A stretch of 42,978 bases of DNA. Source: Candidatus Cetobacterium colombiensis. GTDB taxonomy: Bacteria > Fusobacteriota > Fusobacteriia > Fusobacteriales > Fusobacteriaceae. Positions 3,008 through 26,789 of the stretch are shown here, piece by piece; within the stretch, counting starts at the first letter, position 1; each line of letters begins with the position of its first letter. The stretch is taken from NCBI RefSeq assembly GCF_033962415.1, contig NZ_JAVIKH010000018.1, forward strand, positions 1 through 42,978, written 5' to 3'. Position numbers and translations under genes: made by a program. The notes beneath the pieces were generated by a model. It saw only the letters and a list, made by a program, of their open reading frames with translations, was not told where the DNA came from and made no database searches.

Positions 3008-3019
3008 TTGTATCCTCTC

Positions 3020-4978
3020 CTATTTATAATCTTGAATTTTAGGAAGTTTAAAGTTGTTTTTAAAATCTTTTTTCATTTTAGTAAACCAGTTAAGAGTATT
3101 TAATTGTCCTTTTTTATCTTCTGACTCAGGGAATGGACTCTTAGAGAAATCTAGTTTATTAGTTTGATTTAGAATAACTTTTAAGTCCTTCCATTGATCT
3201 TTGTTTTCAAGATTAAATTTATTTTTGAAATCATCTATAAATTTTTGTTTATCTTCACTTTCAACATATGAAGAGTCAAAAGATTCATATCTGTTTTTAG
3301 GTTGAAGTAAAAGATTAGTTACCTTAACTTCTGAGCTACCAAATCCAAGAGCTTTAGCTTTTCCAAACTTATGAAGCATATCATTTTCCAACTCTAAAGT
3401 TAAAAGAAGAAGTCCTAACTCATCCTCTTTTAAATTTTTAAATGACACTTCAAAGTTAAATTCGTTTCCAGAATTCATGAACTGAATACTAGAGTTATGC
3501 TTTTCCTCTTTTTCAGGAGTAATAGAAGTTTTAAACTTAGAATAATCAGTGTTAAGTTTATCTTTATGATGCCAATAGAATTTTCTACCTCTTATTTTAG
3601 TTTTGTCATCATACGTTCCATTTTCTAAATAGAAACCTGTTAAAGTAGGATGAGGTTCACCTAGAGATTTGATAAGAATAGGTTTAGATTGAATATTAGC
3701 CTTATCTTTATCAATAGTGGCATCTTTAAAGAAAACTCTACCTTGAAGAGCTATTTTATCCTTATCCTCTTCCTTTTTGTCCTCGTTATTGTTACCAGTC
3801 ATTCCAAATATTCTACAAGCATAACAAGCATCTTCAAAAGTATCACAAGCTTTTAGTTCTTTTGGCACTAAATCATATGGACTATATTTGTATCTTAATC
3901 TTGGAATTTCAGAGAAAGCAAGATTTTTAGCATTTCCATTGTTATCAACTTGGAAAATAATAGGGTCTCCAGATTTGATACTTTCAATATAAAACTCTTT
4001 TCCACCCTTTTTTAAATCTCTTTCATTTCTTTGTTTTAAAAGATATTGAATATCTTTGTATTCATCCAAAGTAAATTTAAATGATTTTCCATTTTGAGTT
4101 GGGTATAGTATTTTTTCATGTTTCTTACTGAAAATATCAGAACTTATCCAAAGAATACCATCCATATCTTTTTTTCCATTAGTAACCTTTTCAAAATCAT
4201 TATTTTTATCTATATGCTCATAATTTTTTATTAGATTAGAAAGAGGTAAGTCATAAATGCTCTCTTTTCCTTTGCCTCTTCTATCTTTGTATTCAAAAGG
4301 AAGAGCTTCAGTTTTAACTTTTAAAACAGTGGCCTCAACAATAAGTCCATCCTCATTCTCAGTTGGAAGTCTTTTGATGATTCCGAAAACTCTATCATTA
4401 AAAGCTCCAGCACTAAGTCTTTTTTCAAGTCTCTCACTTTCAATATTAAGTAAACAACTGTTAGAAATAGCTTCTAAAACACTTCTAAAGCTACCCTTTA
4501 AAGAGCTTGCAGGAATAACATACTTTCCATCTTTTTTATAGAACATCTCTCTAGAGTGATTTGTAGCTACCTCATTACCTTTAGGTTCTGGAAAAAATAT
4601 AGGTGATTTATTAGTTAAAGTACAAATTATCTTTCCAGAAAATTCTCCTTTATTAACGGGCTCTCTTTCAACTTTATCTTCAATTCTAACAAAATTATAT
4701 GGATAATCAAATTTTATGTTCCCAATACTTTGTTTAGATGTGTTGCCACCAAATTTAGTGTTATTATTTCCTTTTGAGAAGCTACTTTCTAAAGAAGATA
4801 CAACTCTTTTAAAATCAAAGTTAGCTCCCTTTATATCAAACTCAATTTCAACTCCAACATCTAATTTATTAGCTAGGTTTTCACTATTCCATTTAGCTTT
4901 TCCAATTTGATACTCTTTACCTTTTATTGTTACCTTTTTAGCGTCTTTATTAATTGCTTCAATTTTTCCTTTTGCCAC
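3020..4978 (-). CDS. large RAMP protein, TIGR03986-like, type III effector subunit
   Basis: A 652-residue protein. The first 60 residues form a small beta-rich domain (MAKGKIEAINKDAKKVTIKG), followed by RAMP modules with the recognisable opening IPASSLKGSFRSVLEAI at about residues 155-172 and the ending GKAKALGFGSSEV near 550. The layout matches the TIGR03986 family, which accompanies Cas10/Csx10 systems. It is probably a backbone or cap subunit of the Cas10-crRNA complex. A CxxC-like pair (CDTFEDACYACRIFG) lies near residue 385. The start is GTG at 4978 with GGAGGG 6 nt upstream; ATG is absent. It begins 2 nt after the Csx19-like gene. Confidence 0.8.
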   Translation of the reverse strand: MAKGKIEAINKDAKKVTIKGKEYQIGKAKWNSENLANKLDVGVEIEFDIKGANFDFKRVVSSLESSFSKGNNNTKFGGNTSKQSIGNIKFDYPYNFVRIEDKVEREPVNKGEFSGKIICTLTNKSPIFFPEPKGNEVATNHSREMFYKKDGKYVIPASSLKGSFRSVLEAISNSCLLNIESERLEKRLSAGAFNDRVFGIIKRLPTENEDGLIVEATVLKVKTEALPFEYKDRRGKGKESIYDLPLSNLIKNYEHIDKNNDFEKVTNGKKDMDGILWISSDIFSKKHEKILYPTQNGKSFKFTLDEYKDIQYLLKQRNERDLKKGGKEFYIESIKSGDPIIFQVDNNGNAKNLAFSEIPRLRYKYSPYDLVPKELKACDTFEDACYACRIFGMTGNNNEDKKEEDKDKIALQGRVFFKDATIDKDKANIQSKPILIKSLGEPHPTLTGFYLENGTYDDKTKIRGRKFYWHHKDKLNTDYSKFKTSITPEKEEKHNSSIQFMNSGNEFNFEVSFKNLKEDELGLLLLTLELENDMLHKFGKAKALGFGSSEVKVTNLLLQPKNRYESFDSSYVESEDKQKFIDDFKNKFNLENKDQWKDLKVILNQTNKLDFSKSPFPESEDKKGQLNTLNWFTKMKKDFKNNFKLPKIQDYK

Positions 4979-4980
4979 AA

Positions 4981-5373
4981 CTATCCCTCCAGTCCAATAA
5001 ACTGTATTTTTTCAACTCCATCGATTAAACCTTTACGGAATCTAATCTTTTTCCCTGTAGAATATCCAGATGCTTTACTAATCTCTTTCTCATCAAAGAA
5101 TATAACTTCCTCTTTAGCATTAGGCAAATCACTAGATTTTATCTCTTCAACAAAGTACTCATCTTCATCAATTTTTACTCCATAAACCATAATAGAATCA
5201 TTGAATATATAGAACTTATAAGGAGCTGCATCTTTTAAAGATTGAAACTCTTTAGTATCTTTAGAGATAGTTATTCCATTCTCTTTTTCATAATCAACTA
5301 GTATAGTGTTAAAGCTCTCATTTGTATCTAATCCATTAATAACAGTATCTAAATTTTTTATCACTTTAATCAC
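4981..5373 (-). CDS. csx19: Csx19-like type III-D protein
   Basis: A 130-residue protein. The core YKFYIFNDSIMVYGVKID followed by an acidic stretch and VIFFDEKEISKA...RFRKG resembles the Csx19 pattern of a 'display' strand pair followed by a charged beta-strand and a terminal arginine segment. Csx19 is a small protein typical of subtype III-D and of unknown function. The assignment rests on this pattern plus the operon position between RAMP genes. The GTG start overlaps the stop of the preceding RAMP gene by 4 nt, so translation is probably coupled. Confidence 0.55.
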   Translation of the reverse strand: MIKVIKNLDTVINGLDTNESFNTILVDYEKENGITISKDTKEFQSLKDAAPYKFYIFNDSIMVYGVKIDEDEYFVEEIKSSDLPNAKEEVIFFDEKEISKASGYSTGKKIRFRKGLIDGVEKIQFIGLEG

Positions 5374-6203
5374 CCAACAACTTTCTTTAGAATTTCAAAA
5401 TTTTCCATAGCATTTTTTTCCAATTTATAAACTTTATATAGGTAGTCTTCTCCTAATTTTAAAGACTTTTTCTCATCTAAATTAAAATTAGAGCTATCTA
5501 AAGTTAAAGAGCTATTTTTAAACTCCTTATATTGAAGAGTTTTAACAGCCAGTTCAACCTCTCCAAATCCTCTAGTTTTAGAAGAACCGATTCTAATGTC
5601 ACCATCAATACTGTCTCTTATTGCAAAAAGAAGAGCTTTAAGTTCATCTTTTTCAACATTTTTAATAGTTACCTCAGTTATAAAAGGATCACAAGTATAC
5701 TCAAATTGTAAAGGAACAACAGCCCCACCACTAAATCTGTCTATAGGTGTAACTGATTTGGGTTTTTCTTTTTCAACTTTTCCAGTTCCTTCAAAATAAG
5801 CATCATCTATATGAAGTCTACTTTTAAGATTTTTAGCTCCAAAAAGTTTAGAAATTTTTAAAGATTTTTCCAAGAAGATATCCTCTCCTTTTTCTTTTAA
5901 AACATCCTCCATATAGTCCTCGTAATCATATACTTTATCGTCATTTTTATATTTTCCCTCTGGAATCTCTTTAAATTTATCCTCTTCTAAATTAAAGTGA
6001 TCATACCAAATTGTATAGAAAACCTCTTTTAACATACCTTTAAGAGTTGAACCTGGAATAAAGGGCTCTTTGCTACCAGCTGTAGTATTCCATTGGATTA
6101 AATTTCCTTTCTCCTGAACATCATCGCTAGCCTTAATTAAAAGGGGAGATTTAGGAGTGATTTTAAGAGATATTTTTATCTCGTTTTTATTAACATTAAA
6201 CAT
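5370..6203 (-). CDS. Csm3-like RAMP protein (first copy downstream of csm3-like gene)
   Basis: A 277-residue RAMP protein. The N-terminal strand SPLLIKASDD, the segment FIPGSTLKGMLKEVFYTIW (residues about 48-66), a central HIDDAYF, and the final glycine loop IGSSKTRGFGEVEL are hallmark RAMP/Csm3 elements. Csm3-type subunits line the crRNA backbone and cut bound target RNA with an aspartate in the first loop; the DD of KASDDVQ is the candidate here. The segment PIDRFSGGAVVPLQFEY fits the Csm3 beta-hairpin that reaches across the crRNA. Tight operon spacing puts it in one complex with its neighbours. Confidence 0.75.
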   Translation of the reverse strand: MFNVNKNEIKISLKITPKSPLLIKASDDVQEKGNLIQWNTTAGSKEPFIPGSTLKGMLKEVFYTIWYDHFNLEEDKFKEIPEGKYKNDDKVYDYEDYMEDVLKEKGEDIFLEKSLKISKLFGAKNLKSRLHIDDAYFEGTGKVEKEKPKSVTPIDRFSGGAVVPLQFEYTCDPFITEVTIKNVEKDELKALLFAIRDSIDGDIRIGSSKTRGFGEVELAVKTLQYKEFKNSSLTLDSSNFNLDEKKSLKLGEDYLYKVYKLEKNAMENFEILKKVVG

Positions 6204-6213
6204 AACTTTCCCC

Positions 6214-6963
6214 CTATAGTGATATTTTTGTTATTTTATTAAGAGCGTTTACATCTTTATTTTTTAAGTCACCTTTAAATATGTAGTTCTTTAAAGATTC
6301 TTTATCATTTGAATCTACAAATTTACAAGATTTTAATTCTAATCTACATTTTCCAATACCTCTAGAAAGTTTTCCACCAAATAAATCACCAGAAAGGATA
6401 TCTTTTAACCCTAGCATAATAATTTCCAATTGATAATCCTCAATATTTTCTAAAGTCATTTCTAAAAGAAATCTGTTTCCTTTTTCAATAACATTATAAT
6501 CAAATTTAGCTCCCTTTACAGTTGCTCCAGTTTTTCTAGATATTTTGATACCATCTCTAGTCACCTCTTTAGTATTGTTGTCCATAATTTTTAAGTCAGA
6601 TATATGAAGCTTAGAAGCGAAATTTTTAAAATCTTTTCCTAATATCTTACTTAATCTTTCTTTAACTTTATCATCTTTTGAGATATCAGAACTTGTATAA
6701 CCAAATATTCCAAAAACATCCCCTTCATTTAACAAATCAGTTCCAACCTTTAATCCAAAAGGTGCTCCAACTAAGAATCCTTCAACTTTACTTCTTAAAT
6801 AACCTTTAAAAGATGATCCTGGAATATAATAACCATTTTCTCCTGTTTTAATAAAAGCTGAATCAAAATCTCCTTCAACTTTTCCACTTCCAATGTGAAG
6901 AGCATTTTCAACAACTAACTCTCCTGTAATAACGTATCTATTTTTAAATTGACTAAAATTCAT
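6214..6963 (-). CDS. Csm3-like RAMP protein
   Basis: A 249-residue protein and the most canonical Csm3 homologue in the operon: ALHIGSGKVEGDFDSAFIK supplies the first loop with a candidate catalytic aspartate, YYIPGSSFKGYLRSKVEGF is the RAMP helix, SKLHISDLKI the middle strand, and LFGGKLSRGIGKCRLEL the C-terminal glycine loop. It probably forms the repeated backbone and slices target RNA. It lies 10 nt after the small subunit gene, with a GGGGAGGGG-like ribosome site. Confidence 0.8.
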   Translation of the reverse strand: MNFSQFKNRYVITGELVVENALHIGSGKVEGDFDSAFIKTGENGYYIPGSSFKGYLRSKVEGFLVGAPFGLKVGTDLLNEGDVFGIFGYTSSDISKDDKVKERLSKILGKDFKNFASKLHISDLKIMDNNTKEVTRDGIKISRKTGATVKGAKFDYNVIEKGNRFLLEMTLENIEDYQLEIIMLGLKDILSGDLFGGKLSRGIGKCRLELKSCKFVDSNDKESLKNYIFKGDLKNKDVNALNKITKISL

Positions 6964-6975
6964 TTTACCCCTCCC

Positions 6976-7362
6976 CTAAATATCCAAAGCTTTTAAAGCA
7001 TTTTCTTTTCTAAAACTAATTTTAATTAAATAAAAAATCTCTCTAAAAATCTGATTTTTAACTTTAGTATCCTCTTGAGAAGAGTTTAAAAATTCTAAAA
7101 TATCCTCTCTTTTTTCAACATAGTTTTTTAATATATCTTTAAAAAAATTAGTACTTTTATCTTTTTTTATTTTTTCGTCAATAAATAAAGTTAAATCATT
7201 ACTATTGAGATTATATTTATGTAACTCAAGTTTATCTTGTAAAGTTGCAAATTGAGATTTAGTAGCAGTTTTAAAATCAAATTTTCCTTCAACAAACTCT
7301 TTAATAATTTCATTAGATCTATTATTAACTATTTTCAAAGCCTTTTCTCTTAATAAGTCCAT
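6976..7362 (-). CDS. Csm2/Cas11-like small subunit
   Basis: A 128-residue, all-helical, lysine- and glutamate-rich protein. Size, helix content and position between csx10 and the csm3-like genes fit the Cas11 (Csm2/Cmr5) small subunit that packs along the target RNA. There is no catalytic motif, as expected. The ATG overlaps the stop codon of csx10 by one base (TAATG), indicating coupled translation. Family membership is inferred mainly from position and fold prediction by eye. Confidence 0.6.
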   Translation of the reverse strand: MDLLREKALKIVNNRSNEIIKEFVEGKFDFKTATKSQFATLQDKLELHKYNLNSNDLTLFIDEKIKKDKSTNFFKDILKNYVEKREDILEFLNSSQEDTKVKNQIFREIFYLIKISFRKENALKALDI

Positions 7363-8960
7363 TACTTTACCTCCAAATGGTTTTTACTACTGATTTCAAC
7401 ATCTCCAAATCCCTCATTTTTTCTAGATCCTATCCCTTTCTCTTGGATAGAGTTTAGTCTTTCAATCAGTTCATTAGTAAATCCAGTAGTTGAAAAAGTT
7501 AGTACTCCACCCTTTGCAATGGCAAACTCTGTTGATTTTCTAATTTTGTTTAATTGATTATAGCCACCAATTGAGATTATGTTGATAAAACTTTTGCTTT
7601 CTTCCCATACAACTGATTCTAAACCTAAAAGTTCTTTAATTTTGTCACCAATAGATACAGTATCTATAAATGGTAAAATCATATCCGAGTTAAAATCTAT
7701 TGTAAAATATTTTTTATCATTTCCAATCTCTTTTGATAATTTTTCAAGTTTATTAGAATCTACTTTTTCTTTCTTAACATTTGTAGGTTCGAAAGTTATT
7801 AGACACTTTCCAAATCCTTTACTCTTATTCTTTCCAATATAGATGTGTCTATTTGAAAGAGTTTTAGCAATATCTTCACTTAAAAGTATTTTTCCTGAAA
7901 ACTCCATATCCTTAGCTAAAAGAATCTCTTTATTGAAAAGTTTCCCCTCTTCAGAAGTTTTAGTTTCAACATCAATTGCTATATTTATTTCACTTTGTTT
8001 ATTTATAACCAGTTTTTCAAAATGTGCATTAACAACAGGAGAACCATATCTTTCAAATTTAACCTCTTTACCATCAACTTTGTCTTCAGAGTTTTTAGAT
8101 AAAAGTTTATTAACACGAACTACCTTTCCATTTTTAATAGGATATTTACTTTGGAAAATAGAAGCAGAAGCTACAAAGTGATTTTTAGGTAAACCTTGAC
8201 TCACCTTTAAATTTTTAACAAGAGCTTCAGTATCAACGTTAAACTCTCTATCTAAAAGAGAGATAATAGCTCCTCTTAAAGTTCCCCCATGGATATAGTT
8301 ATTCGTTGTAATCTCATTACCAATCTCCTGATTTTTTAAGATTAGATTCTCTAGAGGTTTAAGAGTGTAGCTGTATTCTTTAAAGCTACCTGTATCCAGT
8401 TTTTTATTTAAATTATCTTTATTTGCAGTAGTTTCTAAAACTTTAAATGTAACCTTACCTAGTCCTCTAGACTTTAAGCCACCAATAGCATCTATTCTCT
8501 CTAAACAAGCTTTGAAAAATTTTAAATTCTCTCCTTCAAGAGCATGAAAGATCTCAATCTCTCCACAAAACTTTAGCCCTTTTCTAATAAACTCATATGA
8601 GAATAGAGACCCTTCAGCAGTAGTTTTGCTAGCTTTATCTATTCTGATACCAGATCTATCGTCAGTTAAAAACTCTTTATACTCTAAATATTCTTTAGAA
8701 TCTAACGTTAAAGGAGAAAACCTCATACCAGATTCAACCTCTCCCTCTAATCCAAAATATTTATTTACAGGAAATCCAAAGTTTAAAGCTGCAGAAAATA
8801 AAGCCACCTTTTCCTTTAAAATACCTTTTACTTGAGAGGCACTAAAATATGGAAGACCATCATTATCAAGTTTTGTAATTAGATCTAAATCCTTTCCAAT
8901 AACTCCATCTTTTCCAGTCATTGCTGGAGTTTCCAAAATAACACTATATTTTATTATCAT
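7362..8960 (-). CDS. csx10: Csx10-like RAMP protein (Cas5-type subunit, III-D)
   Basis: A 532-residue protein with two RAMP modules. The first contains YFSASQVKGILKEKVALF (about residues 36-53), the segment GIRIDKASKTTAEGSLFSYE (about 124-143) and the loop GGLKSRGLGKV. The second contains NNYIHGGTLRGAIISLL, YIGKNKSKGFGKCLI and a final IGSRKNEGFGDVEI. This double-RAMP build beside an HD-less Cas10 is typical of Csx10 of subtype III-D, which takes the Cas5/Csm4 place and holds the crRNA 5' handle. Its ATG overlaps the cas10 stop (TAATG). Confidence 0.8.
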   Translation of the reverse strand: MIIKYSVILETPAMTGKDGVIGKDLDLITKLDNDGLPYFSASQVKGILKEKVALFSAALNFGFPVNKYFGLEGEVESGMRFSPLTLDSKEYLEYKEFLTDDRSGIRIDKASKTTAEGSLFSYEFIRKGLKFCGEIEIFHALEGENLKFFKACLERIDAIGGLKSRGLGKVTFKVLETTANKDNLNKKLDTGSFKEYSYTLKPLENLILKNQEIGNEITTNNYIHGGTLRGAIISLLDREFNVDTEALVKNLKVSQGLPKNHFVASASIFQSKYPIKNGKVVRVNKLLSKNSEDKVDGKEVKFERYGSPVVNAHFEKLVINKQSEINIAIDVETKTSEEGKLFNKEILLAKDMEFSGKILLSEDIAKTLSNRHIYIGKNKSKGFGKCLITFEPTNVKKEKVDSNKLEKLSKEIGNDKKYFTIDFNSDMILPFIDTVSIGDKIKELLGLESVVWEESKSFINIISIGGYNQLNKIRKSTEFAIAKGGVLTFSTTGFTNELIERLNSIQEKGIGSRKNEGFGDVEISSKNHLEVK

Positions 8961-10600
8961 TATTTACTCCCCCCTACAAAATCATAAAGTTCAATTACAT
9001 CAAAGATATTGTTTAAAATCTCTTTTAATGTATCTTCGTGAGAGTTACTTAAATTTTTCTTACCAATCCAACTTAAAATTAATTCTTTCTGTTCTGAATC
9101 AAGTTTTACAATGGTATTAATAAGTTCAAATAGATTTTCCATAGATTTATTTGGATTTTTCTCAATTTCAGCTTTTAAATCATAGTACATTCTTAACTTA
9201 TTTTTAGGGAAGTTAGAAGCTTTTAAACTTTCAATTAACTGAAGTAGGTTATCAATCTTTTTACAAGAATCCATATCTTCAATAGAGTATGGTCTTTGAA
9301 TAAGGTTTTTAACTCCTTTTCTAAAATCTCCAATATTAACCGTCCCTTCAGAACCTATAACTTGGAAATCAATAAATCCATTTTTAAAATCTACATTTTT
9401 ATTTTCATATGTTTCATATCTTTTTTTCTTTGCATTTTTTTGAAGAGTTAAGCTCTGATCAAAAAGATAGTACATAGGTGTTTTTGCCTTAGCTATAATA
9501 ACACCACCTGAAGATGTTATATTGCTACCATTATTTTTAAAGTTACAAGTTTTATAGTAATCTTTCATTTTAGAGTTAAATCTCTCTTGGAATCTTGTAG
9601 AAACTTCCATAACTATATGTCCAGGAAAGACAGCACAAACGTCATCTCCTCCAACAATTAGAAACTCTCCAAAGTGTTCATCAAGTTTATTCTCCTCTCT
9701 TAACTCTTTTAAAACTTCGATTAAGCTACCTTTAGTATGTATATCTAAAGTTTGTGAGAAATTTTTTATAAACTCTTTATATTTATCTTCACCTTTATCT
9801 TTACCTTTAAAGTTTTCCTTAGCATTTTTTAAAAATTCACCAACAGAATCTCCATCAGAGTACATAAATCCTATAAAAGATTTCTTTAATTTATATTCCT
9901 CTAAGCTATCTACAGGTTTAAATTCATCTTTAAACTCTTTTTTAAAATCTGAATAAAAACCAATTTCTTGGAAATCATCTTTAATAAGGTTTGCAGCTAT
10001 ATATTTTGCAAAACATGATGGACAAATCCCAGAAACTCCATCTTTATCAAAAATTTGATATTCAATTTTATATCTATCATTTAAAGTTTTAAGTTTTTCA
10101 TTCTCTAAATATGAGTCAAAGTTTTTAACATAGCTTTCTAAATTTTCATTAAAATTTTCTTTTTTAATCTGAACAGGATTGTCGCAACAGATGCCACATT
10201 TTTCAATAAAAGGAAGATCTAAATTTATTTTAGAAAAACCTTTATTTTTAACAACGTTAGTTGCTTTGGCTAATTTGTCCATAGCATCCCATACTTCTTC
10301 CCCTTTAGCATCTATATATGATATAGCAAGCTTTGAATCTGGAGCAAAATTATTGTAAACCTCTTTAATTTCAGCTTCTATTTTTTTAGCTACTTCTTTA
10401 TCTTTACAATAAAATTTAGCATTTCCAGCTGCAACATAGAGAATATCATCTTTTCCAACGCCATTTTTATTTAAAATATCCTTTACAACAACTTGGTTTA
10501 AATAGTCTAATAAAAAACTAGCACCTCTTATTGTTTTTAGTTTATTGGTATTAAAAATAAAATCTTTAATTTTAACAGTTTCCACTGATACTAAATACAT
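8960..10600 (-). CDS. cas10: Cas10 large subunit, HD-less, cyclic oligoadenylate synthase
   Basis: The signature subunit of the type III complex. From the ATG at 10600 it has 546 residues: an N-terminal palm-like domain, a zinc-binding pair C135-G-I-C138 and C193-P-S-C196, a DGD (about 249-251) in the first palm strand region, then the cyclase motif GGDD at about 317-320 (FLIVGGDDVCAVFPG), and a helical C-terminus. The N-terminal HD DNase domain of classical Cas10 is absent, so this complex should make cyclic oligoadenylate but not cut DNA through Cas10. The start is at 10600, not the TTG at 10621, because AAGGGGG stands 5-6 nt before this ATG. It heads the operon running down to 554. Confidence 0.9.
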   Translation of the reverse strand: MYLVSVETVKIKDFIFNTNKLKTIRGASFLLDYLNQVVVKDILNKNGVGKDDILYVAAGNAKFYCKDKEVAKKIEAEIKEVYNNFAPDSKLAISYIDAKGEEVWDAMDKLAKATNVVKNKGFSKINLDLPFIEKCGICCDNPVQIKKENFNENLESYVKNFDSYLENEKLKTLNDRYKIEYQIFDKDGVSGICPSCFAKYIAANLIKDDFQEIGFYSDFKKEFKDEFKPVDSLEEYKLKKSFIGFMYSDGDSVGEFLKNAKENFKGKDKGEDKYKEFIKNFSQTLDIHTKGSLIEVLKELREENKLDEHFGEFLIVGGDDVCAVFPGHIVMEVSTRFQERFNSKMKDYYKTCNFKNNGSNITSSGGVIIAKAKTPMYYLFDQSLTLQKNAKKKRYETYENKNVDFKNGFIDFQVIGSEGTVNIGDFRKGVKNLIQRPYSIEDMDSCKKIDNLLQLIESLKASNFPKNKLRMYYDLKAEIEKNPNKSMENLFELINTIVKLDSEQKELILSWIGKKNLSNSHEDTLKEILNNIFDVIELYDFVGGSK

Positions 10601-10632
10601 CCGATTCCCCCTTATATACAAGTATTTTATTA

Positions 10633-10661
10633 ATTATACTACATTTATATGTATTTTTCAA
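10633..10661 (-). promoter_or_regulatory. sigma-70 promoter of the cas10 operon
   Basis: On the minus strand TTGAAA (10656-10661), exactly 17 nt, TATAAT (10633-10638), 32 nt upstream of the cas10 ATG. This is near-consensus and lacks the double-TGTAA pattern of the csx20 promoter just upstream, so the effector operon can be expressed independently. Confidence 0.8.
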
Positions 10662-10671
10662 AAAAAGTTCT

Positions 10672-11052
10672 TTAATAACGCTTATAAATCACATGTTTAA
10701 ATATTGATATCTTTGAAATGCTACCATCATTATTGATAATATCTTTAGAGTTTCTTTCAGTAGTTGAATATACAGGAATAACTCCAATTTTTTTACAAAA
10801 GTTTACCATATGATAAGTATAACCCCAATCACCTTGAATAAGTGCATAGTCACCTTTTTTATAGTTATTTAAAATAAAAGTTTCAAAGTTTGTTAAATAC
10901 ATATACCCTTCATCCGTAGGGGGAGTATTGGACCAAAGCTTTTGTAACTCTTCTGGCAAATAAACTAAATTTTCACAATTTAAATCTTTTTTAGCAGATA
11001 TTATTTGTTCATTAGTTAATTTATGAGAGAAAAGTAGAAACATTGTTGTCAT
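10672..11052 (-). CDS. csx20: Csx20-type ring nuclease
   Basis: A 126-residue protein with the pattern I recognise for Csx20: MFLLFSHKLT at the N-terminus, the invariant-looking VYLPEELQKLWSNTPP (about residues 30-46), GDYALIQGDWGYTYHMVNF (about 68-86), then VIPVYSTTERN and a terminal FKHVIYKRY. Csx20 proteins are CARF-related and degrade cyclic oligoadenylate, switching off type III signalling. GAGGTGA stands 7 nt before the ATG. The gene is 71 nt upstream of cas10 but has its own double-TGTAA promoter; read-through into cas10 is possible. Confidence 0.8.
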   Translation of the reverse strand: MTTMFLLFSHKLTNEQIISAKKDLNCENLVYLPEELQKLWSNTPPTDEGYMYLTNFETFILNNYKKGDYALIQGDWGYTYHMVNFCKKIGVIPVYSTTERNSKDIINNDGSISKISIFKHVIYKRY

Positions 11053-11192: not shown

Positions 11193-11217
11193 AGAAAAAA
11201 ATTTGAGGAGGTACAAA

Positions 11218-12565: not shown

Positions 12566-12602
12566 TCCTCTGAAAATAGGAAATTAAATCAGAGGATTTT
12601 TT
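12566..12602 (+). terminator. terminator after the PIN-kinase gene
   Basis: Stem TCCTCTGA / TCAGAGGA with a 15-nt AT-rich loop, followed by six Ts. It separates the kinase from the CRISPR leader. Confidence 0.8.
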
Positions 12603-13273: not shown

Positions 13274-14782
13274 TTATATATCAATGTATATTTTAGGGTA
13301 ATTATAATCATTTTGTACTGTAGATTCATATTTAGTAAGCCGGGTTTCTTTATTTGGAATATATCGAATTATATTTCTATAGTTTAATTGTTCTTTAAGA
13401 AATAATTCGTTTAATTCACTATTTAAAAGAATAAAATTTCGCTCTAAATCAGAAAAAGCTTTTGATATATTTTTAATTTTTAGAATTTCAATCAAATCAA
13501 TAATTTCATTCATCAATATTTCTTTATTTTTATCAATAATAATTTTTTTTAAAACTAAACTTTTCAGATCTTTTCCAAAAAAACTTTTAATAAATTTGCT
13601 ATTAAAAAAAATTTCATATCCTTCAATTTGCATTTTATTCATAGAAAAATTTATAAAATCGAAATCCTGCTCTTTTAATAAATTTGAAAAAATAAAGTTA
13701 TTTTTAAATGTTTCAACAAATCTTTTAGTAAAAAATTTATTTAAAATACTAAAATAATAACTAATTTCATTAGATTCGTAATCAATTAAGTTATTATTGA
13801 AGCATAAACTTAGGTAATTTGAAAAAACAAATTTTCTAATATTTATATTTTTTATTTTTTTTAAAATAAAAGGAATAAAAAGATAGTTAAAGAGATATTC
13901 TATTTCATCTTCTGTTATATTATCTTCAAATCCAAATTGACTTAGTGAATCAAAATTTACAATTGAAATATCAGATTCTGTCTCATTAAGAAAAAAAATT
14001 AGAAGGTTAAATGGTTCTTGAAATCTTTTTTGTGTAAAAGAAGATAATTTTGAGAAATTAAAAACAAAACTTTTGATATTTTCTTTAAAGAAATTAATAT
14101 CAATATGAGAATCATCAAATAAATAAGATAAGGATTCAAAAAAAATAGCTTTTTCATTATCATTTATACTTTTATATAAATTAGATGTATTTTTAAAATC
14201 AAAGTTATCAATGGAATTATTTAAAAGTTTAAAAAATCTATAGTTTTCATTTTTAGGATTGCTTAAAAAATCTATTCTCAAGTTATCAACACATCGAAAA
14301 AGATTATAATCCTCTTTTAGAGAATGAGTAGATACCCAGTTTAGTGATTTAATCCCTAATTCACTTCCCAATTTATAAAATGTTATACTTATAGTTTTCA
14401 TACCTTGAGTTGTATCAAAAAAAATTGAATCAAAATTTTCTGTACTAATTGTTTTTAAAATTTTAAAATAAAGATTTTTATTAGAAATATTAGTCTCTAT
14501 AGTTATGATTTGAATTTCAAAATTTTTATTACAAAGTTTATTTTTAAGGAAAACTGCATTATTTAGCGATTCATTTGTACAAAATAATGTTAATTTTTTT
14601 AAAAATGGAAAGAGAAAACAACTATTTTCCACGTTATTATTTTCATATTCTCGAACTTTAGAAAGACCTACAAAAGTTAAAAGATGATATATTTCATTCA
14701 TTTTAAATAAATTATCATTTGTAACATTATGATAAAAATTATCAACTGCATTTTTCAAATTTTCTAAGTAAATTTCTCTCAT
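13274..14782 (-). CDS. second CARF-domain protein, no recognisable effector domain
   Basis: A 502-residue protein with the CARF ligand motif D123-T-T-x-G-x-K129 (SIFFDTTQGMKTISITFYKL) after beta-alpha units at residues 60-115, followed by NWVSTH, just as the first CARF protein has TWQSQ after its motif. Residues 170-500 are mostly helical. No HEPN R-x4-6-H motif or clear PD-(D/E)XK core is visible. The N-terminal helix-rich stretch before the CARF fold (residues 1-45) is unusual. It is transcribed away from the Ubl-RT-cas1 operon and towards array 1. It probably senses cyclic oligoadenylate; its output is unknown. Confidence 0.65.
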   Translation of the reverse strand: MREIYLENLKNAVDNFYHNVTNDNLFKMNEIYHLLTFVGLSKVREYENNNVENSCFLFPFLKKLTLFCTNESLNNAVFLKNKLCNKNFEIQIITIETNISNKNLYFKILKTISTENFDSIFFDTTQGMKTISITFYKLGSELGIKSLNWVSTHSLKEDYNLFRCVDNLRIDFLSNPKNENYRFFKLLNNSIDNFDFKNTSNLYKSINDNEKAIFFESLSYLFDDSHIDINFFKENIKSFVFNFSKLSSFTQKRFQEPFNLLIFFLNETESDISIVNFDSLSQFGFEDNITEDEIEYLFNYLFIPFILKKIKNINIRKFVFSNYLSLCFNNNLIDYESNEISYYFSILNKFFTKRFVETFKNNFIFSNLLKEQDFDFINFSMNKMQIEGYEIFFNSKFIKSFFGKDLKSLVLKKIIIDKNKEILMNEIIDLIEILKIKNISKAFSDLERNFILLNSELNELFLKEQLNYRNIIRYIPNKETRLTKYESTVQNDYNYPKIYIDI

Positions 14783-14929: not shown

Positions 14930-16252
14930 TTGGAAAAATATGAAATTCGTTTTAAAAAAAATAATTTGGATAAAATTTTAAAAAATTTATTTTTAAATAA
15001 AGATAAAGAACAATTTTGTATAGTCTTAGCTAAAAAAGATGTAATTAATCAATTCGTTATTTTTAAAGAAATAGAAGTATTTTATCCTAAAGAAAGTGAT
15101 GTATTGAGCTCTAGTTTAACTCATATATCTATAAAAAAAGAGTTTATTTATAGAATACTTTTAGAATTTAATCAAAGAGTTGACATTGATACATTGATAG
15201 AGATACATACACATCCTTTTTTACAGTTAAATGACAAAGTAAATTTTTCTTCGACAGATAATGAAGATGAAATTAATTTCAATGATTATTTAAAATCTAA
15301 TTATTCAAATTTAAATTATGCAAGTGTAGTTCTATCTGATAATTCTTATGAAGCGAGAATATATTTAGAAAATGAGATAGGTAAAATAAAAATAAAGGAA
15401 TTAGATGTAAATAAAGAGATTTTAAATAAAAAATACTTAGATATTTACGAAAGAAATATCGATTATATGGGACTTAATAATTTAAAAAAGATATTTTCAA
15501 CTGAAAAAATTTCAATAGTGGGAGTTGGAGGTTTAGGTTCTATAGTTGCAGAGCATTTAGTCAATATGGGGTTTAATAATTTAGTCTTAATAGACAATGA
15601 TGTTGTAGAATATTCAAATTTAAATAGATTAGTTGGTGCAAAATATAAAGATGCTCAAGAAAAAAAACTTAAAGTAGAGGTTGTAAAAAAACATTTATTA
15701 GAAATAAATCCATTTTTAAATATAAAATCTATAAGTTCAGAAGTTAAATCAGATGAAGCATTAAATGAATTAGTAGAAAGTAGTAAAGTTTTTTTGACTA
15801 CAGACAACCACTCAAGTAGAGCACTAGTTAATGATTTTTGTTTAAAATATTTTATTCCATTTATTTCAATAGGAGTAAATATTAGTGTTATAAATAATGC
15901 TATTTCAGATATAAGTGGAGAAATTATAAAAATATTTCCAGGAGATAAATTTTGTTTAAGATGTTTGCAAAGAATAAGACAAATAAATGTAGATTATGAA
16001 AATATTGAAAATGAAAAAATTAAGGAAAAAATTTTAAAAAGAGGATATCTAAAAGAGCATAAAGAACCAGCTGTAAAAACATTAAATACTATCTTAGCAT
16101 CGTTAGGTGTTGACAGTTACGTAAATGAATTTACAAACTATAATAGAGAAAGCTCAATTTTAGTTTATGAAAATAATAAAATACCAATTATTTATGAAGA
16201 TAATATAAGTATAAAAAATAAAAATAAAAATTGTTATGTATGTAATTTATAA
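14930..16252 (+). CDS. JAB deubiquitinase-like / E1-like ThiF fusion
   Basis: A 440-residue two-domain protein and first gene of the seven-gene adaptation operon. Residues 1-155 are a JAB/JAMM metalloprotease domain with E91, H93-T-H95-P and SSTD (107-110), which bind zinc and cleave isopeptide or C-terminal tails. Residues 185-440 are an E1-like adenylation domain: VGVGGLGS (197-204), IDND, NLNR (230-233), an internal CLRC and a terminal CYVC as zinc ligands. E1 domains adenylate the C-terminus of ubiquitin-like proteins. The start is TTG at 14930, 7 nt after AGAGGAGG; the ATG at 14912 precedes that ribosome site. The partner E2 lies two genes downstream. Confidence 0.85.
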   Translation: MEKYEIRFKKNNLDKILKNLFLNKDKEQFCIVLAKKDVINQFVIFKEIEVFYPKESDVLSSSLTHISIKKEFIYRILLEFNQRVDIDTLIEIHTHPFLQLNDKVNFSSTDNEDEINFNDYLKSNYSNLNYASVVLSDNSYEARIYLENEIGKIKIKELDVNKEILNKKYLDIYERNIDYMGLNNLKKIFSTEKISIVGVGGLGSIVAEHLVNMGFNNLVLIDNDVVEYSNLNRLVGAKYKDAQEKKLKVEVVKKHLLEINPFLNIKSISSEVKSDEALNELVESSKVFLTTDNHSSRALVNDFCLKYFIPFISIGVNISVINNAISDISGEIIKIFPGDKFCLRCLQRIRQINVDYENIENEKIKEKILKRGYLKEHKEPAVKTLNTILASLGVDSYVNEFTNYNRESSILVYENNKIPIIYEDNISIKNKNKNCYVCNL

Positions 16253-16264
16253 AGGAGGGAAAAA

Positions 16265-16801
16265 ATGGAAAGAGTTGGTGTAGTTTTAGATTTTTTTAAT
16301 TTTCAAAATGCGGTATCCAAATCAGGGGCAGAATTAAATTATGAAAAATTTTTAGAATATTTAGGAAGTTTAGAAGAAGGGAGAAAATTAGTTGATGCAT
16401 ATGCTTATTTCAATTTAAATTATACAACAGAAAATACAGAAAGATTATTAATAGAGGATATTGAAAAATCAGGGTTTTTAATAAAAAAAAAAATTAATTA
16501 TTCAAAAGAGGAAGAAGAGTATAATTTTTATCAAACAGAAATGATTATAGATATTTTAAAATTTGTTTCAGAATTGAAAATAGATATTCTTGTTTTCGGG
16601 TCTAAAGACAGTATATTTTATCCATTATTAAAAACACTTAGAGATAAAGGTGTCAGAGTAGAATTGATTTCGGTTGAAAATTTTGAAAATGAAAGACTAA
16701 AAGGAATTTCTCAAGGAGTAATCTCAATAAATGAGTTTATTGAAGAAAATACAGAAGAAATTAACAATATAAATAATTTAGAAAATGAGGAGGTATTATA
16801 A
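16265..16801 (+). CDS. NYN/PIN-like RNase
   Basis: A 178-residue NYN (LabA-type) protein. Strand one ends in the metal site GVVLDFFNFQNA (D9), a second acid sits in EMIIDILKF, and the third in VFGSKDSIFYPLLKTLRDKG, which matches the NYN pattern of G-S-x-D-x-x-F-x-P-L. NYN proteins are metal-dependent RNases related to PIN domains. The glutamate/asparagine-rich tail (about 160-178) is probably disordered. It lies 12 nt after the JAB-E1 gene and 1 nt before the Ubl-E2 gene, so it belongs to this operon. It might process RNA or cDNA intermediates in spacer uptake, but this is inference. Confidence 0.75.
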   Translation: MERVGVVLDFFNFQNAVSKSGAELNYEKFLEYLGSLEEGRKLVDAYAYFNLNYTTENTERLLIEDIEKSGFLIKKKINYSKEEEEYNFYQTEMIIDILKFVSELKIDILVFGSKDSIFYPLLKTLRDKGVRVELISVENFENERLKGISQGVISINEFIEENTEEINNINNLENEEVL

Positions 16802-16802
16802 T

Positions 16803-17471
16803 ATGGCAATCATAAATGGGAAAAGAGTTTCAATACCTACACCTAAAGATGTTGGGGGATCTCGAATAAAAAAAGCTGTTAATGTAAATAATAATAGAAG
16901 ACTTATAATTGAAAAAGAAGATAATAGTTTCGAAACAATAAAAGATGATGGGGTTTATAAGTTAGATGATTTTACAAAAATAAGTAATATTCCAGATAGA
17001 ACAAAAGGAAACTTTTTTCAAGTACGTTCTAATTTATCTAAAGCTGTCATAAAAAACCAGGTTATTGATATAGGTACAAAATTATTTAGAAATCAAAATC
17101 TAAAATTTGATGAAGAAAATTGTGACTGGCTAGTAGTTCCAAACTATAGATTACCTAAAAATTGGCATCATTTAAGCAAAGAAACTCCACTGTTGATTGT
17201 TTTCCCTACTGATTATCCAAATAATCCTCCAATAGGGTTTTATTTAAAAGCAGATTTACAAATATCACCAAATGGACATTTTTATAATTTAGCCTATCAC
17301 TCGGCTGCCAAAGAACCTTTAGAGTATGGTTGGAAGTGGTATTGCGTGTATGTTGAAAATGGAGCTTGGCAACCACACTTTGTAAAATATATAGAAGATT
17401 GGAAGAAAGGAGACAATCTATGGACTTATTTTCAATTAATAACAGAAGTTTTGGAGAGTACAGATCACTAA
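16803..17471 (+). CDS. ubiquitin-like domain fused to a prokaryotic E2-like domain
   Basis: From the ATG at 16803 (GAGGAGG 9 nt upstream) the protein has 222 residues. Residues 1-70 look like a small beta-grasp ubiquitin-like domain (INGKRVSIP, RRLIIEKEDNSFETIKDDGVYKL split over strands). Residues 75-222 match a Prok-E2 family E fold: DWLVVPNYRLPK, the E2 hallmark VFPTDYPNNPP, then HFYNLAYHSA and WKWYCVYVENGAW with the only late cysteine in WYCVY. With the JAB-E1 protein this provides modifier, E1, E2 and peptidase. No E3 is visible. Its 3' end overlaps the RT start by 52 nt. The exact E2 subfamily needs profile comparison. Confidence 0.75.
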   Translation: MAIINGKRVSIPTPKDVGGSRIKKAVNVNNNRRLIIEKEDNSFETIKDDGVYKLDDFTKISNIPDRTKGNFFQVRSNLSKAVIKNQVIDIGTKLFRNQNLKFDEENCDWLVVPNYRLPKNWHHLSKETPLLIVFPTDYPNNPPIGFYLKADLQISPNGHFYNLAYHSAAKEPLEYGWKWYCVYVENGAWQPHFVKYIEDWKKGDNLWTYFQLITEVLESTDH

Positions 17472-18307
17472 CATTGAAAGAAATCTCAAAGTTAAATAAT
17501 TTATATGAGGCTTATTTAAAAGTTAAAAAGAAAAATAAAGGACCAGGTATAAATAATCTTACTCTTAGAGATATTTCAGAAGAAGAGATTTATTTTTTGT
17601 CTAATTTATCGAAAATACTAGAAAATAATAATCATATTCCAAAGACAGTAAAATTAACTAGAATAAAAAAGAAAAATGGAAAAAATAGAGAAATTGGTAT
17701 TTTATGTCTAGAAGATAGAATTATCCAAAATGCAATATTAAATATCTTGTCTCCCATCTATGAAAAGGAGTTTTCAGAAGATAGTTTTGCCTATAGGAAG
17801 AATATTTCTTATTTAAATGCAGTGGAAAAAGTAATAGTCTATTTGAAAGATGGATATAGATATATATTAGATTTAGATATTGAAAATTTTTTTGATAATA
17901 TCGATCATGAAATTTTAAAAAAAATATTAGTTGAAAAAATTAAAGATCGGGAATTAATTGTATTGTTAAATAGGTATTTAAATCAAGGTATATATGATAA
18001 TGGAAAAATTTTTAAGAAGAAGAAAGGAGTTATACAAGGAGCTCCTTTGAGTCCTTTTTATTCAAATATTTATTTACACAAATTTGATATTTTATTAAAT
18101 AGAAATAATATAGTTTTTGTTAGATATGCTGATGATTTTTTAGTTTTATCAAAAAATGATTTAAATTTAAGGGAAACAATAATATATATCGAAAAAATTT
18201 TAAGAAAGTACAAATTAAATTTAAATTATGAGAAATGTAAAGTGATAGATTTTCTAAAAACAGGTAAACTTGAGTTTTTAGGACAAAAAATTTATAAAAG
18301 TAGGTGA
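17420..18307 (+). CDS. free-standing reverse transcriptase, CRISPR adaptation-associated
   Basis: A 295-residue RT of the group II intron-like branch, not fused to Cas1. Visible motifs: PKTVKLTRIKKKNGKNREIG (RT1-2, about 74-93), LDLDIENFFDNIDH (first catalytic Asp, about 150-163), GVIQGAPLSPFYSNI (about 203-217), VRYADDFLVL with the catalytic YADD at 236-239, and LEFLGQKI near the end. No maturase or endonuclease domain follows, so this is not an intron-encoded protein. The start is the ATG at 17420 preceded by GAAAGGAG; it lies inside the E2 gene. It ends 4 nt before cas1. Such RTs let Cas1-Cas2 capture spacers from RNA. Confidence 0.9.
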   Translation: MDLFSINNRSFGEYRSLTLKEISKLNNLYEAYLKVKKKNKGPGINNLTLRDISEEEIYFLSNLSKILENNNHIPKTVKLTRIKKKNGKNREIGILCLEDRIIQNAILNILSPIYEKEFSEDSFAYRKNISYLNAVEKVIVYLKDGYRYILDLDIENFFDNIDHEILKKILVEKIKDRELIVLLNRYLNQGIYDNGKIFKKKKGVIQGAPLSPFYSNIYLHKFDILLNRNNIVFVRYADDFLVLSKNDLNLRETIIYIEKILRKYKLNLNYEKCKVIDFLKTGKLEFLGQKIYKSR

Positions 18308-18311
18308 TAAT

Positions 18312-19256
18312 ATGGAAGTATTCATATCTCAAGATGGATGCGCTCTTTATAAAAGTGAAGAATTGCTGATAATTACAAATAAAAAAGAAAAATTAGAATA
18401 TTCTTATAGAGATGTATCAAGTATTTTAATATCTGGAAATGTAAGACTAACAACTGGATTTTTAAGAGAAGCTATAGAGAATAATATAGATATAGTTATT
18501 CTAGATAAATACGGCTATCCAAAAGGAAGATTTTGGAATACAGGAGTAAGTACAATATCTAAAATAAGAAAAGGTCAGCTTTTATGCTCTAAAAGTACTC
18601 TAGGATTAGAAATCTCAAAACAATGGATAGAAGACAAAGTTTTAAATATGAATTTTCATTTATCAGATTTAACTAAGCAACAAGACTTACTAGATATTAT
18701 TAAGTTTCAAAACAGTTTAAAAGATAATGTTGATTTAAATAGTATCAGAGGATTTGAGGGAAATGTGTCTAAAATTTATTTTTCAATAGTCTCACAAATG
18801 TTACCTAAACAATTTCAATTTTTAAAAAGGAGTTTTAGACCAGCGTTAGATGAATTCAATGCTTTAGTTAATTATTTTTTAGGGATTTTATATAATAGGA
18901 TAGAGAAAAGTTCATTAATAGCAGGTATAGATCCAAATTTAGGTTTTTTTCACAGAGATGATTATAATCGTCCGTCATTTGTTTTTGATTTTATTGAGAA
19001 ATATCGATATATAGCATATACATCTGCAACTAAGTTTTTTAGAGCTAATAAGGTTAGAAAAAGTTATTTTACAAATGAAAATAATAGTTTTTATTTGAAT
19101 GATGATGGTAAAAAAAATTTGATTCCACTGTACTATAACGAACTTAATAAAAGCGTTACTTTTAAAGGAAAAAAAATAAAAACTATTGATAAAATCCAGC
19201 AAGATTTATTTGAAGTTGCTAAATATTTTATAAAAATAGCAGAGGAGGTTGATTGA
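18312..19256 (+). CDS. cas1: Cas1 integrase
   Basis: A 314-residue Cas1 that integrates spacers into arrays together with Cas2. The beta N-terminal domain leads into the helical catalytic domain with the expected residues: Glu in RGFEGNVSKIYF (about residue 144), His in LGFFHRDDYN (about 217) and the acidic cluster in SFVFDFIEKYR. The length is normal. GTAGGTGAT precedes the ATG. It lies 4 nt after the RT gene and 1 nt before cas2, which supports physical coupling of RT and integrase. Confidence 0.95.
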   Translation: MEVFISQDGCALYKSEELLIITNKKEKLEYSYRDVSSILISGNVRLTTGFLREAIENNIDIVILDKYGYPKGRFWNTGVSTISKIRKGQLLCSKSTLGLEISKQWIEDKVLNMNFHLSDLTKQQDLLDIIKFQNSLKDNVDLNSIRGFEGNVSKIYFSIVSQMLPKQFQFLKRSFRPALDEFNALVNYFLGILYNRIEKSSLIAGIDPNLGFFHRDDYNRPSFVFDFIEKYRYIAYTSATKFFRANKVRKSYFTNENNSFYLNDDGKKNLIPLYYNELNKSVTFKGKKIKTIDKIQQDLFEVAKYFIKIAEEVD

Positions 19257-19257
19257 T

Positions 19258-19545
19258 ATGTATCTTATACTTTATGATATATCTTCTGAAAAAGTTAGAT
19301 CTAGAATAGTTAAATATCTTAAAAATAAGGGGTTATTGAGGCTTCAAAAATCCATTTTTGCAGGAAATATTAAAAAAATTTATATTGAAGAAATAATAGT
19401 AGAAAGTAATCAAATAATTTCTTTAGAAACTGATTCCTTTATTATATTGAAAATAGATAAGGATTCTTTTAAAACATTAAAATACTTTGGACAAAAAATA
19501 AATATACATAAATATTTAAAAGATTCTTTAATCGAGGTTATTTAA
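19258..19545 (+). CDS. cas2: Cas2
   Basis: A 95-residue ferredoxin-fold Cas2 beginning MYLILYDISSEKVRSRIVKY, with the conserved Asp in LYDIS and a Gly-Leu/Gln-Ser segment LLRLQKSIFAG. It bridges Cas1 dimers. The ATG at 19258 is 9 nt after AGAGGAGG; the TTG at 19249 directly abuts that site and is unlikely as a start. One nt separates it from both cas1 and cas4. Confidence 0.92.
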   Translation: MYLILYDISSEKVRSRIVKYLKNKGLLRLQKSIFAGNIKKIYIEEIIVESNQIISLETDSFIILKIDKDSFKTLKYFGQKINIHKYLKDSLIEVI

Positions 19546-19546
19546 A

Positions 19547-20119
19547 ATGCTTACCGTAACAGATTTAAAAAATTATATTTATTGTCCAAGAATTATTTAT
19601 TTTAAAAATTTACATAAATTTTCAGAACCTTTAAAAAATAATTCATTAGTTCAAGAAGGAAGCGATTTACATAAAAAAAGATTTAAATATAAAAATTACT
19701 TAAAAAAAATATTTAAAGAATTTGAATTTAATAAAAAAGAAGTAAAAATCTATGATAAAAATATGGATATTTGTGGAGTAGTAGACGAAATATTTTTTTC
19801 TTCTAAAGAAGCTGTACCAGTGGAATATAAATTTTCAAATTACACAGGTGAGATTTATGAAACAAATTTAATTCAATTGACTTTGTATGCATTATTAATA
19901 AAGAAAACTTATAATATAAATGTTTTAAGAGGATATATAATTTATACTAGAAATGAAGTAAAGTGTATCGAAGTAATTTTTGAAGATATGGATTTTGTTA
20001 ATTGTCTTGATAATATAAAAAAGTTAAGAGAAAATTTTTTGCAAGAATATATTCCAGAACTAAATGAAAATATAGAAAAGTGTAATTCCTGTTACTTTAA
20101 AAAAATATGTATTTTATAA
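19547..20119 (+). CDS. cas4: Cas4 nuclease
   Basis: A 190-residue PD-(D/E)XK nuclease that trims prespacers. An N-terminal cysteine in YIYCPRIIYF and three C-terminal cysteines (EKCNSCYFKKICIL) form the Fe-S cluster site; the nuclease core shows D in GVVDEIFF and EYK in VPVEYKFSN, followed by QLTLYALLI (QxxxY). It is last in the operon and is followed by a terminator. A Cas4 beside an RT-Cas1 module hints that DNA or cDNA ends are processed before integration. Confidence 0.92.
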   Translation: MLTVTDLKNYIYCPRIIYFKNLHKFSEPLKNNSLVQEGSDLHKKRFKYKNYLKKIFKEFEFNKKEVKIYDKNMDICGVVDEIFFSSKEAVPVEYKFSNYTGEIYETNLIQLTLYALLIKKTYNINVLRGYIIYTRNEVKCIEVIFEDMDFVNCLDNIKKLRENFLQEYIPELNENIEKCNSCYFKKICIL

Positions 20120-20128
20120 AAAATTTAA

Positions 20129-20166
20129 GGAGATTGATTAAAAAATAATAAGATCAATCTCTTTTT
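20129..20166 (+). terminator. terminator of the Ubl-RT-cas1-cas2-cas4 operon
   Basis: Stem GGAGATTGAT / ATCAATCTCT with a 14-nt loop, then TTTTT. The T-run is also the first base tract of leader 2. Confidence 0.8.
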
Positions 20167-20430
20167 ATATTTACAATCCTTATTTTAATATGCTATAATA
20201 ATGTTATAAACCCAGATAATTTTTCCGTGGACAAATTAGTGAATGTAAAGATTATTCAGTAGTAGGGGGATTTAACCAGCTAAATTTTTACTAAATTTCA
20301 TACTTTAGTAGACAAATTACAACTGTTTTCTATCCTGATGAGTACAAAAATCATAAAAAATCACTAAATTTTACTAAAAGAAAAACTACCATAAACACTC
20401 TATAATTGAGAACTCTATGAGAGTTCACGG
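20162..20430 (+). promoter_or_regulatory. CRISPR leader 2 with pre-crRNA promoter
   Basis: A 269-nt gene-free block nearly identical to leader 1 (12597-12865). It has the same TTTACA (20170-20175), 18 nt, TGCTATAAT (TATAAT 20194-20199) promoter and the same closing inverted repeat GAACTCTATGAGAGTTC. Only scattered substitutions separate the two copies, so both arrays should be served by one adaptation machinery and transcribed alike. Confidence 0.8.
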
Positions 20431-25975: not shown

Positions 25976-25985
25976 AATCTTCCCC

Positions 25986-26780: not shown

Positions 26781-26789
26781 AATTTTGAT

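Follow-up and report, generated by a model that had tools for sequence, protein, structure and literature searches.

Conjugation of ubiquitin-like proteins (Ubls) takes part in anti-phage defence in the Bil (BilABCD) and CBASS (Cap2/Cap3) systems, where Cap2 acts with co-encoded proteins and Bil tags phage structural proteins. In the vWA-MoxR/FtsH conflict systems a Ubl and a ubiquitin-conjugating (E2) domain share one protein, from which a JAB peptidase has been proposed to release the Ubl (PMC7159879). Bub operons encode a JAMM peptidase and a ubiquitin-activating (E1) domain in one protein (BubCD) with an E2 and a Ubl alongside, and they are described as putative pathways of immunity or stress, in a text that makes no link to CRISPR in the portions read (PMC13373217). 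On the side of CRISPR immunity, the reverse transcriptase (RT)-associated modules (RT-Cas1, or RT beside Cas1) adjoin type III loci and carry an RT of the group II intron lineage, with a YADD motif, immediately before cas1-cas2. Domains of both kinds appear in a figure legend of Altae-Tran et al. (2023), in which ThiF is given as adaptation-linked and NYN, ThiS and Prok-E2 as auxiliary CRISPR-linked (PMC10910872). The locus described here resembles each of these systems. It lies in a stretch of 42,978 nt (the window) from Candidatus Cetobacterium colombiensis (assembly GCF_033962415.1, contig NZ_JAVIKH010000018.1, forward strand), in which ubiquitin-like conjugation genes are encoded within a CRISPR spacer-acquisition operon. 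Among named organisms in the collections searched, the closest to this genome are Cetobacterium, with a 6-phospho-alpha-glucosidase 98% identical to the C. somerae protein and DNA matches on Cetobacterium plasmids. The best-supported reading, favoured somewhat beyond even chances, is that of an acquisition module which carries its own Ubl cassette, directed at the acquisition proteins.

A Ubl cassette in an RT-cas1-cas2-cas4 operon

Seven genes on the plus strand and one divergent gene make up the module:

14930..16252, plus strand: JAB-E1 (BubCD-like), with an N-terminal JAMM peptidase, a C-terminal ThiF/E1 adenylating domain and a CxxC...CxxC zinc site (Pfam ThiF, BubCD match)
16265..16801, plus strand: NYN-domain protein, catalytic motif probably lost (Pfam NYN 8.1e-16)
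16803..17471, plus strand: Ubl-E2 fusion, residues 1-69 ubiquitin-like and residues 70-222 Prok-E2_E with C181 (Pfam Prok-E2_E)
17420..18307, plus strand: RT, group II intron lineage, YADD intact (Pfam RVT_1 1.4e-36)
18312..19256, plus strand: cas1, Cas1b-like (Pfam Cas1 1.3e-62; PADLOC Cas1b 1.2e-79; tree)
19258..19545, plus strand: cas2 (Pfam Cas2 1e-13)
19547..20119, plus strand: cas4 (Pfam Cas4 2.6e-13; NCBIfam TIGR00372 3e-29)
13274..14782, minus strand: CARF-domain gene, divergent from the seven-gene operon (PADLOC CARF 2.9e-11)

The intergenic gaps from JAB-E1 to cas4 were recomputed as 12, 1, -52, 4, 1 and 1 nt, exactly the values given for the seven plus-strand genes in the initial annotation, from which the divergent CARF gene and the CRISPR arrays flanking both sides were absent. 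The JAB-E1 gene starts with TTG at 14930 and has an in-frame ATG at 14912 as an alternative start.

The JAMM and ThiF domains are encoded in a single open reading frame (ORF). The ThiF half is identified by Pfam (4.5e-41), and the same search named no JAB domain in JAB-E1. The JAB half was assigned because the JAMM residues (H99-T-H101 ... S113-x-x-D116) are invariant in an alignment of seven homologues and because a seven-row JAB-E1 profile matches the solved BubCD of Citrobacter (9ea4) over its full length (9.4e-50, positions 15-407); the window protein alone matches BubCD at 1.8e-23 over 94-405.

The E2 half of the Ubl-E2 protein matches Prok-E2_E with an E-value of 5.2e-6 and 26.7 bits against a curated cut-off of 25. 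C181 and the GHF and YPxxPP motifs are invariant in all six E2s compared (three fusobacterial and three from the cyanobacterial plasmids described below), and a profile comparison with rhizobial and Synechocystis E2s gave a probability of 93%, while the match of the E2 profile to eukaryotic E2s is weak (best E-value 0.005). Eukaryotic E2s carry HPN where this E2 has GHF, and the cysteine region, in which W-Y-C181 is followed by WxP, resembles the canonical one.

The Ubl half is best read from its boundary with the E2. The stand-alone Ubls of Microcystis and of the Aphanizomenonaceae strain TIOX110 end in ...VPKIVKG, and the fused fusobacterial form reads ...IPDRTKG-NFF at the same position and continues into the E2, so that Gly69 of the fused form corresponds to the final residue of the stand-alone Ubls. 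Lys68-Gly69 is invariant in all six fused and stand-alone Ubls of the alignment, and an invariant T-K-G69 closes the Ubl part of the fusobacterial fusion. Judged from these residues, the pattern is the one expected of a conjugating end that would need release by a peptidase in fused and tailed forms, with the JAMM domain of JAB-E1 as the obvious candidate for freeing Gly69. Release at this residue is proposed because the stand-alone Ubls end at the very glycine that never varies where Ubl and E2 join in the fused form, and a JAB that frees a Ubl lodged in a Ubl-E2 protein was proposed earlier for another conflict system (PMC7159879). The tailed form is the Ubl of Nostoc (L033, 16695-16916), which carries eight further residues (SRIWDFKF) after KG and looks like a precursor, as if it needed trimming.

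The RT, with YADD intact, lies directly upstream of cas1-cas2, is not fused to Cas1 and is linked to a type III effector and arrays; the motifs of E1 and Cas1 are likewise intact. Its matches in the PDB are to group II RTs and to the Cas6-RT-Cas1 protein 7kft (1.5e-33). The Shine-Dalgarno sequence (AAAGGAG) and ATG of the RT gene are located inside the E2 reading frame, and the 52-nt overlap is therefore a plausible case of translational coupling.

A NYN/PIN-like fold of the second protein is supported by Pfam (8.1e-16) and by a profile match to VPA0982 (1e-5). The acidic motif GDSD is kept in the three cyanobacterial NYN proteins and is replaced by GSKDS, GSVNS and LTRNT in the three fusobacterial ones. 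Since the motif is lost, the fusobacterial NYN is probably no active RNase, and the window protein more likely binds RNA or serves as a scaffold; of the NYN RNase named in the initial annotation the fold stands and the activity is doubtful.

Conservation in the Fusobacteriota and recurrence on cyanobacterial plasmids

Among 61 related genomes two more JAB-E1 orthologues were found (75% and 54% identity), one in a genome of the same genus (G010) and one in another genus of the same family (G020). The whole module is present in the same gene order in all three genomes, with gaps of 15/1/-52/4/-20/1 and 13/1/-52/5/1/0 outside the window and with an identical 52-nt E2/RT overlap in each. The JAB-E1, NYN and Ubl-E2 genes thus adjoin RT-cas1 in two further fusobacterial genomes, and the earlier argument that the overlap makes chance adjacency unlikely is strengthened by the recurrence of both block and overlap. 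The E1 is 53-75% identical among the three genomes. Identity to G020 is 69% for Ubl-E2 and 63% for cas1, with Ubl-E2 constrained like cas1, and the ratio of nonsynonymous to synonymous substitution rates between the window and G010 is 0.07-0.18 for the seven genes (Ubl-E2 0.086, cas1 0.10). Purifying selection acts on all eight genes between these two closest loci. The CARF gene is kept with the module in every case (orthologues 72% and 47% identical), and of the phylum's 98 genomes searched, three encode Prok-E2_E, each time within this module.

The elements that flank the module in the window are as follows:

554..11052, minus strand: type III effector operon with a CARF gene, cas6, Csm3/Cas7 group proteins, a Cas5-IIID-like protein, Cas10 with GGDD, and Csx20 (PADLOC, NCBIfam Csx20)
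12598-12866 (leader), array to 13205, no strand assigned: CRISPR leader and array 1, five repeats
20162-20430 (leader), 20431-21211 (array), no strand assigned: second leader copy and array 2, eleven intact repeats

The order in the window is type III operon, PIN-kinase gene, leader and array 1, CARF gene, seven-gene operon, leader and array 2. The effector operon is a neighbour of the acquisition module and lies outside the mobile unit, as G020 makes clear. In this genome the module, its CARF gene and its own array are located on contig C3 and the Cas10 operon (Cas10 88% identical) on contig C10. The latter is syntenic with the window, with vWA, kinase and PP2C-like phosphatase genes on one side and PIN-kinase, Csx20 and Cas10 genes on the other, and between these flanks, where the window has the module, it carries an array and a different ORF. 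The module is therefore present or absent as a unit, and the ubiquitin-type genes accompany the genes for acquisition rather than those of the effector. Within an explanation that as a whole is rated moderately above even, the eight genes (CARF, JAB-E1, NYN, Ubl-E2, RT, cas1, cas2 and cas4) are read as a self-contained, relocatable acquisition module with a ubiquitin cassette.

Several features of the surroundings deserve mention. The two leader copies (12598-12866 and 20162-20430, 94% identical) bracket the CARF gene and the module, and the duplication looks as though the module entered via recombination between leader-array copies. A second CARF gene (554-2218, PADLOC CARF 1.2e-9) terminates the type III operon. 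The gene at 11203-12555 combines a weak PIN match with a protein kinase domain and is kept opposite csx20-cas10 in all three genomes. A block at 25169-29577 beside the type III locus encodes vWA proteins, a kinase/Ppx-GppA-like protein and a PP2C-like phosphatase and is syntenic in G020 (L097, 680-4958); vWA, kinase and phosphatase genes have been reported as CRISPR-linked (PMC10910872). A type III-A-like locus with an HD-containing Cas10 and its own Cas1 is present on contig C25 of the same genome as the window (L022, 4955-6302); the repeats and leader (93%) of its array match those of the window, and the RT module may act in trans for arrays that belong to two type III systems. A further genome of the family (G032; L076, 370-2295) has a Cas6/RAMP-like gene upstream of an RT-Cas1 fusion, and the 3.8 kb examined contain no ubiquitin-type genes.

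Plasmid searches with JAB-E1 and RT led to three cyanobacterial plasmids, and an E2 search of the plasmids gave no match; the comparison across phyla rests on these three loci and the three fusobacterial ones. In Nostoc N6 (pNPM1) and Microcystis NIES-2481 (p1), RT-cas1-cas2, a CRISPR array and a NYN-hyp-Ubl-E2-JAB-E1 cluster (hyp, hypothetical gene) adjoin a type III-B operon. The Aphanizomenonaceae plasmid of TIOX110 carries cas2, which has a transposon next to it, an array, the same ubiquitin cluster and Cas10, and RT-cas1-cas2 thus stands beside the ubiquitin ensemble in two of the three plasmids. The cyanobacterial Ubl is 65-73 amino acids long, and Ubl and E2 are separate proteins. The NYN subfamily of these loci was detected (E < 1e-25) in 3 of 72,556 plasmids, exactly these three. 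In TIOX110 the transposon, an ISKra4 element, occupies the place expected for RT-cas1 (L029, 7117-8192), and the stretch from E2 to JAB-E1 contains three tandem repeats of 82 bp (L029, 11648-11893).

In a Cas1 tree the Cas1 proteins of the fusobacterial modules group with other Cas1s of their own genome and the cyanobacterial ones with RT-Cas1 fusions, and a single Cas1 clade was rejected (approximately unbiased test, p-AU = 5.4e-6). As the Cas1s belong to different lineages, the partnership formed at least twice at the Cas1 level. A common origin was neither supported nor rejected for the RTs (p-AU = 0.17-0.26) and likewise for the E1s (p-AU = 0.48).

Searches elsewhere returned little. JAB-E1 alone as a query against genome contigs found only a weak ThiF relative, and the E2 profile had no match in the phylum to which that relative belongs (398 genomes, a set without a positive control). 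Among viral contigs, 24 ThiF relatives of JAB-E1 were found, mostly weak, the best of which (L038) is a prophage JAB-E1 without cas genes; an E2 search of the viral contigs gave no match.

Proposed role of the cassette and its alternatives

If the cassette acts on the acquisition proteins, Ubl-E2 would be made as a single chain and cleaved behind Gly69 by the JAMM domain of JAB-E1, giving a Ubl that ends in glycine and a separate E2. The ThiF domain would then adenylate Gly69 and hand the Ubl to Cys181 of the E2, which would couple it to lysine residues of other products of the operon (the RT, Cas1-Cas2 or NYN being the likeliest), from which the JAMM domain could remove it again. Tagging would switch spacer acquisition on or off, including that of RNA-derived spacers via the RT, possibly under the control of the divergent CARF gene, which presumably senses cyclic oligoadenylate. 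A modifier placed on the RT, Cas1 or NYN protein to control acquisition, as suggested in the initial annotation, would in this form be the best remaining reading of that idea. The more specific version, in which a Ubl released by JAMM-E1 and attached to the RT or Cas1-Cas2 reversibly switches memory formation from both RNA and DNA and in which the coupling arose more than once, is put forward tentatively, at slightly less than even chances.

A number of results weigh against this role of the cassette. Profile matches of the Ubl are sub-threshold (Multi_ubiq 0.0012 at best, 0.056 for the window), as are those of the cyanobacterial Ubls to ThiS-like families (6e-4 to 7.5e-3). A search of the PDB with the Ubl gave no match, a single-sequence AlphaFold2 model of Ubl-E2 reached a pLDDT (predicted local distance difference test) of 36 and was not used, and a profile comparison of the Ubl with multi-Ubl proteins gave no support (probability 1.3%). 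Profile searches thus uphold the E1/JAB and E2 assignments of the earlier annotation, and the ubiquitin-like fold is supported less strongly, mainly by the alignment with the stand-alone cyanobacterial Ubls. In the alignment across both phyla the E1 has no invariant cysteine outside the zinc site, the sole shared cysteines being the CxxC pairs, and an E1 thioester step is therefore doubtful. Bub enzymes may use oxyester intermediates, so that conjugation would still be possible without a thioester on the E1. The cyanobacterial array parts the ubiquitin cluster from RT-cas1-cas2 and the cluster lies nearer to the effector genes. Finally, several RT-Cas1 modules examined lack ubiquitin-type genes, so the cassette is not required for RT-based acquisition. 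Conversely, cas genes are absent from the multi-Ubl operons of Mesorhizobium, Synechocystis (pSYSX) and Pseudanabaena 7367; neither part therefore needs the other, and their combination is special.

The spacers add a further caution. The arrays of the three fusobacterial genomes hold 42 spacers (window 12866-13205 and 20431-21211; L017 10080-11124; L019 12055-12935; L097 7673-8072), of which 37 are pyrimidine-rich (p = 4e-7), as for the antisense of purine-rich mRNA. Four contain an antisense Shine-Dalgarno sequence with ATG, resembling the antisense of mRNA starts, and none contains one in the sense direction. A control type III-A array of the same genome and repeat family, which has no RT in its vicinity, is likewise biased towards pyrimidines (12 of 14 spacers), with an antisense Shine-Dalgarno and ATG site in 0 of 14. 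Spacer orientation was therefore rejected as proof of RNA acquisition, and the shared bias fits type III RNA targeting. All matches between spacers and phages were at chance level.

Three other explanations were considered. An effector-side role is unlikely but survives best: the Ubl would tag Cas10, CARF effectors or phage proteins, much as in Bil, and the acquisition genes would adjoin for co-regulation only. Conjugation by Bil and CBASS is known to act in interference, the CARF gene is always divergent from the operon, and the cyanobacterial ubiquitin cluster has the array on one side and the Cmr operon on the other, a layout that keeps this possibility alive. It is weakened by G020, where the ubiquitin-type genes stay with RT-cas1-cas2-cas4 and the effector locus is found on another contig without them, and the 52-nt overlap of Ubl-E2 and RT in three of three genomes also speaks for the acquisition side. 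Rather less probable is a function without protein tagging, with the adenylated Ubl as an acyl or sulphur carrier or the uncut Ubl-E2 as an adaptor that holds the RT, NYN and Cas1. An intact JAMM peptidase is not obviously needed by a carrier system, the E2 retains a cysteine at the canonical position together with YPxxPP, and Ubl and E2 are separate proteins in the cyanobacteria, even though the fused Ubl-E2, the ThiF/MoeB-like E1 (which has a zinc site but no evident catalytic cysteine common to both phyla), the ThiS-like cyanobacterial Ubl and a NYN that looks like a dead enzyme suited to a scaffold would all agree with it. Chance lodging of an independent Bub-type defence operon in a CRISPR operon is strongly disfavoured and very improbable, for although defence genes cluster and Bub operons are widespread (PMC13373217; multi-Ubl operons L030, L035 and L036), the conserved overlap, the co-mobility of eight genes, the exclusive linkage in the phylum, the association with two Cas1 lineages in two phyla and the lack of cas genes in the rhizobial and cyanobacterial multi-Ubl operons examined are all at odds with it.

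Possible control of spacer acquisition and comparison with described systems

How spacer acquisition is limited, above all from the cell's own RNA, is an open question of the field, and the module suggests that a ubiquitin-like tag may be a means by which bacteria regulate the formation of CRISPR memory. If so, dedicated Ubl tagging would be a new layer of control in bacterial adaptive immunity, parallel to ubiquitin in eukaryotic immunity, and would offer a handle on the RT-Cas1 recorders that log transcripts. The system is compact, being a single transcription unit, and directly testable through its key residues (Gly69, Cys181, JAMM His99/His101 and RT YADD).

The initial annotation held that these genes had never been described together, which is nearly right: the domains are listed by Altae-Tran et al. 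(2023) without discussion (PMC10910872). Their FLSHclust list names the same domains as CRISPR-linked, perhaps from loci like the cyanobacterial ones, but contains no analysis as a ubiquitin-like system and no mechanism (PMC10910872). The RT-CRISPR literature searched makes no mention of ubiquitin or NYN. Parts of the association have thus been seen before, and the fused, relocatable RT-acquisition module and the logic of Gly69 appear undescribed in the literature searched.

Compared with the RT-associated type III modules, the RT is here unfused to Cas1 and is accompanied by cas4, a Cas1b-like Cas1, JAB-E1, NYN, Ubl-E2 and the CARF gene. Bil and CBASS use a separate JAB (BilC) or an E1-E2 fusion (Cap2), in contrast to the JAB-E1 and Ubl-E2 fusions of the module, which is joined to acquisition rather than interference genes. 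The vWA-MoxR/FtsH systems have a separate E1, a RING E3 and no CRISPR genes (PMC7159879). The closest match is to BubCD, which JAB-E1 resembles over its full length. Whereas a DUF6527 (BubE-like) gene is present in the multi-Ubl operons L030, L035 and L036, the module has none, and in all three fusobacterial loci Ubl and E2 form one protein, encoded together with NYN and RT inside a CRISPR acquisition operon.

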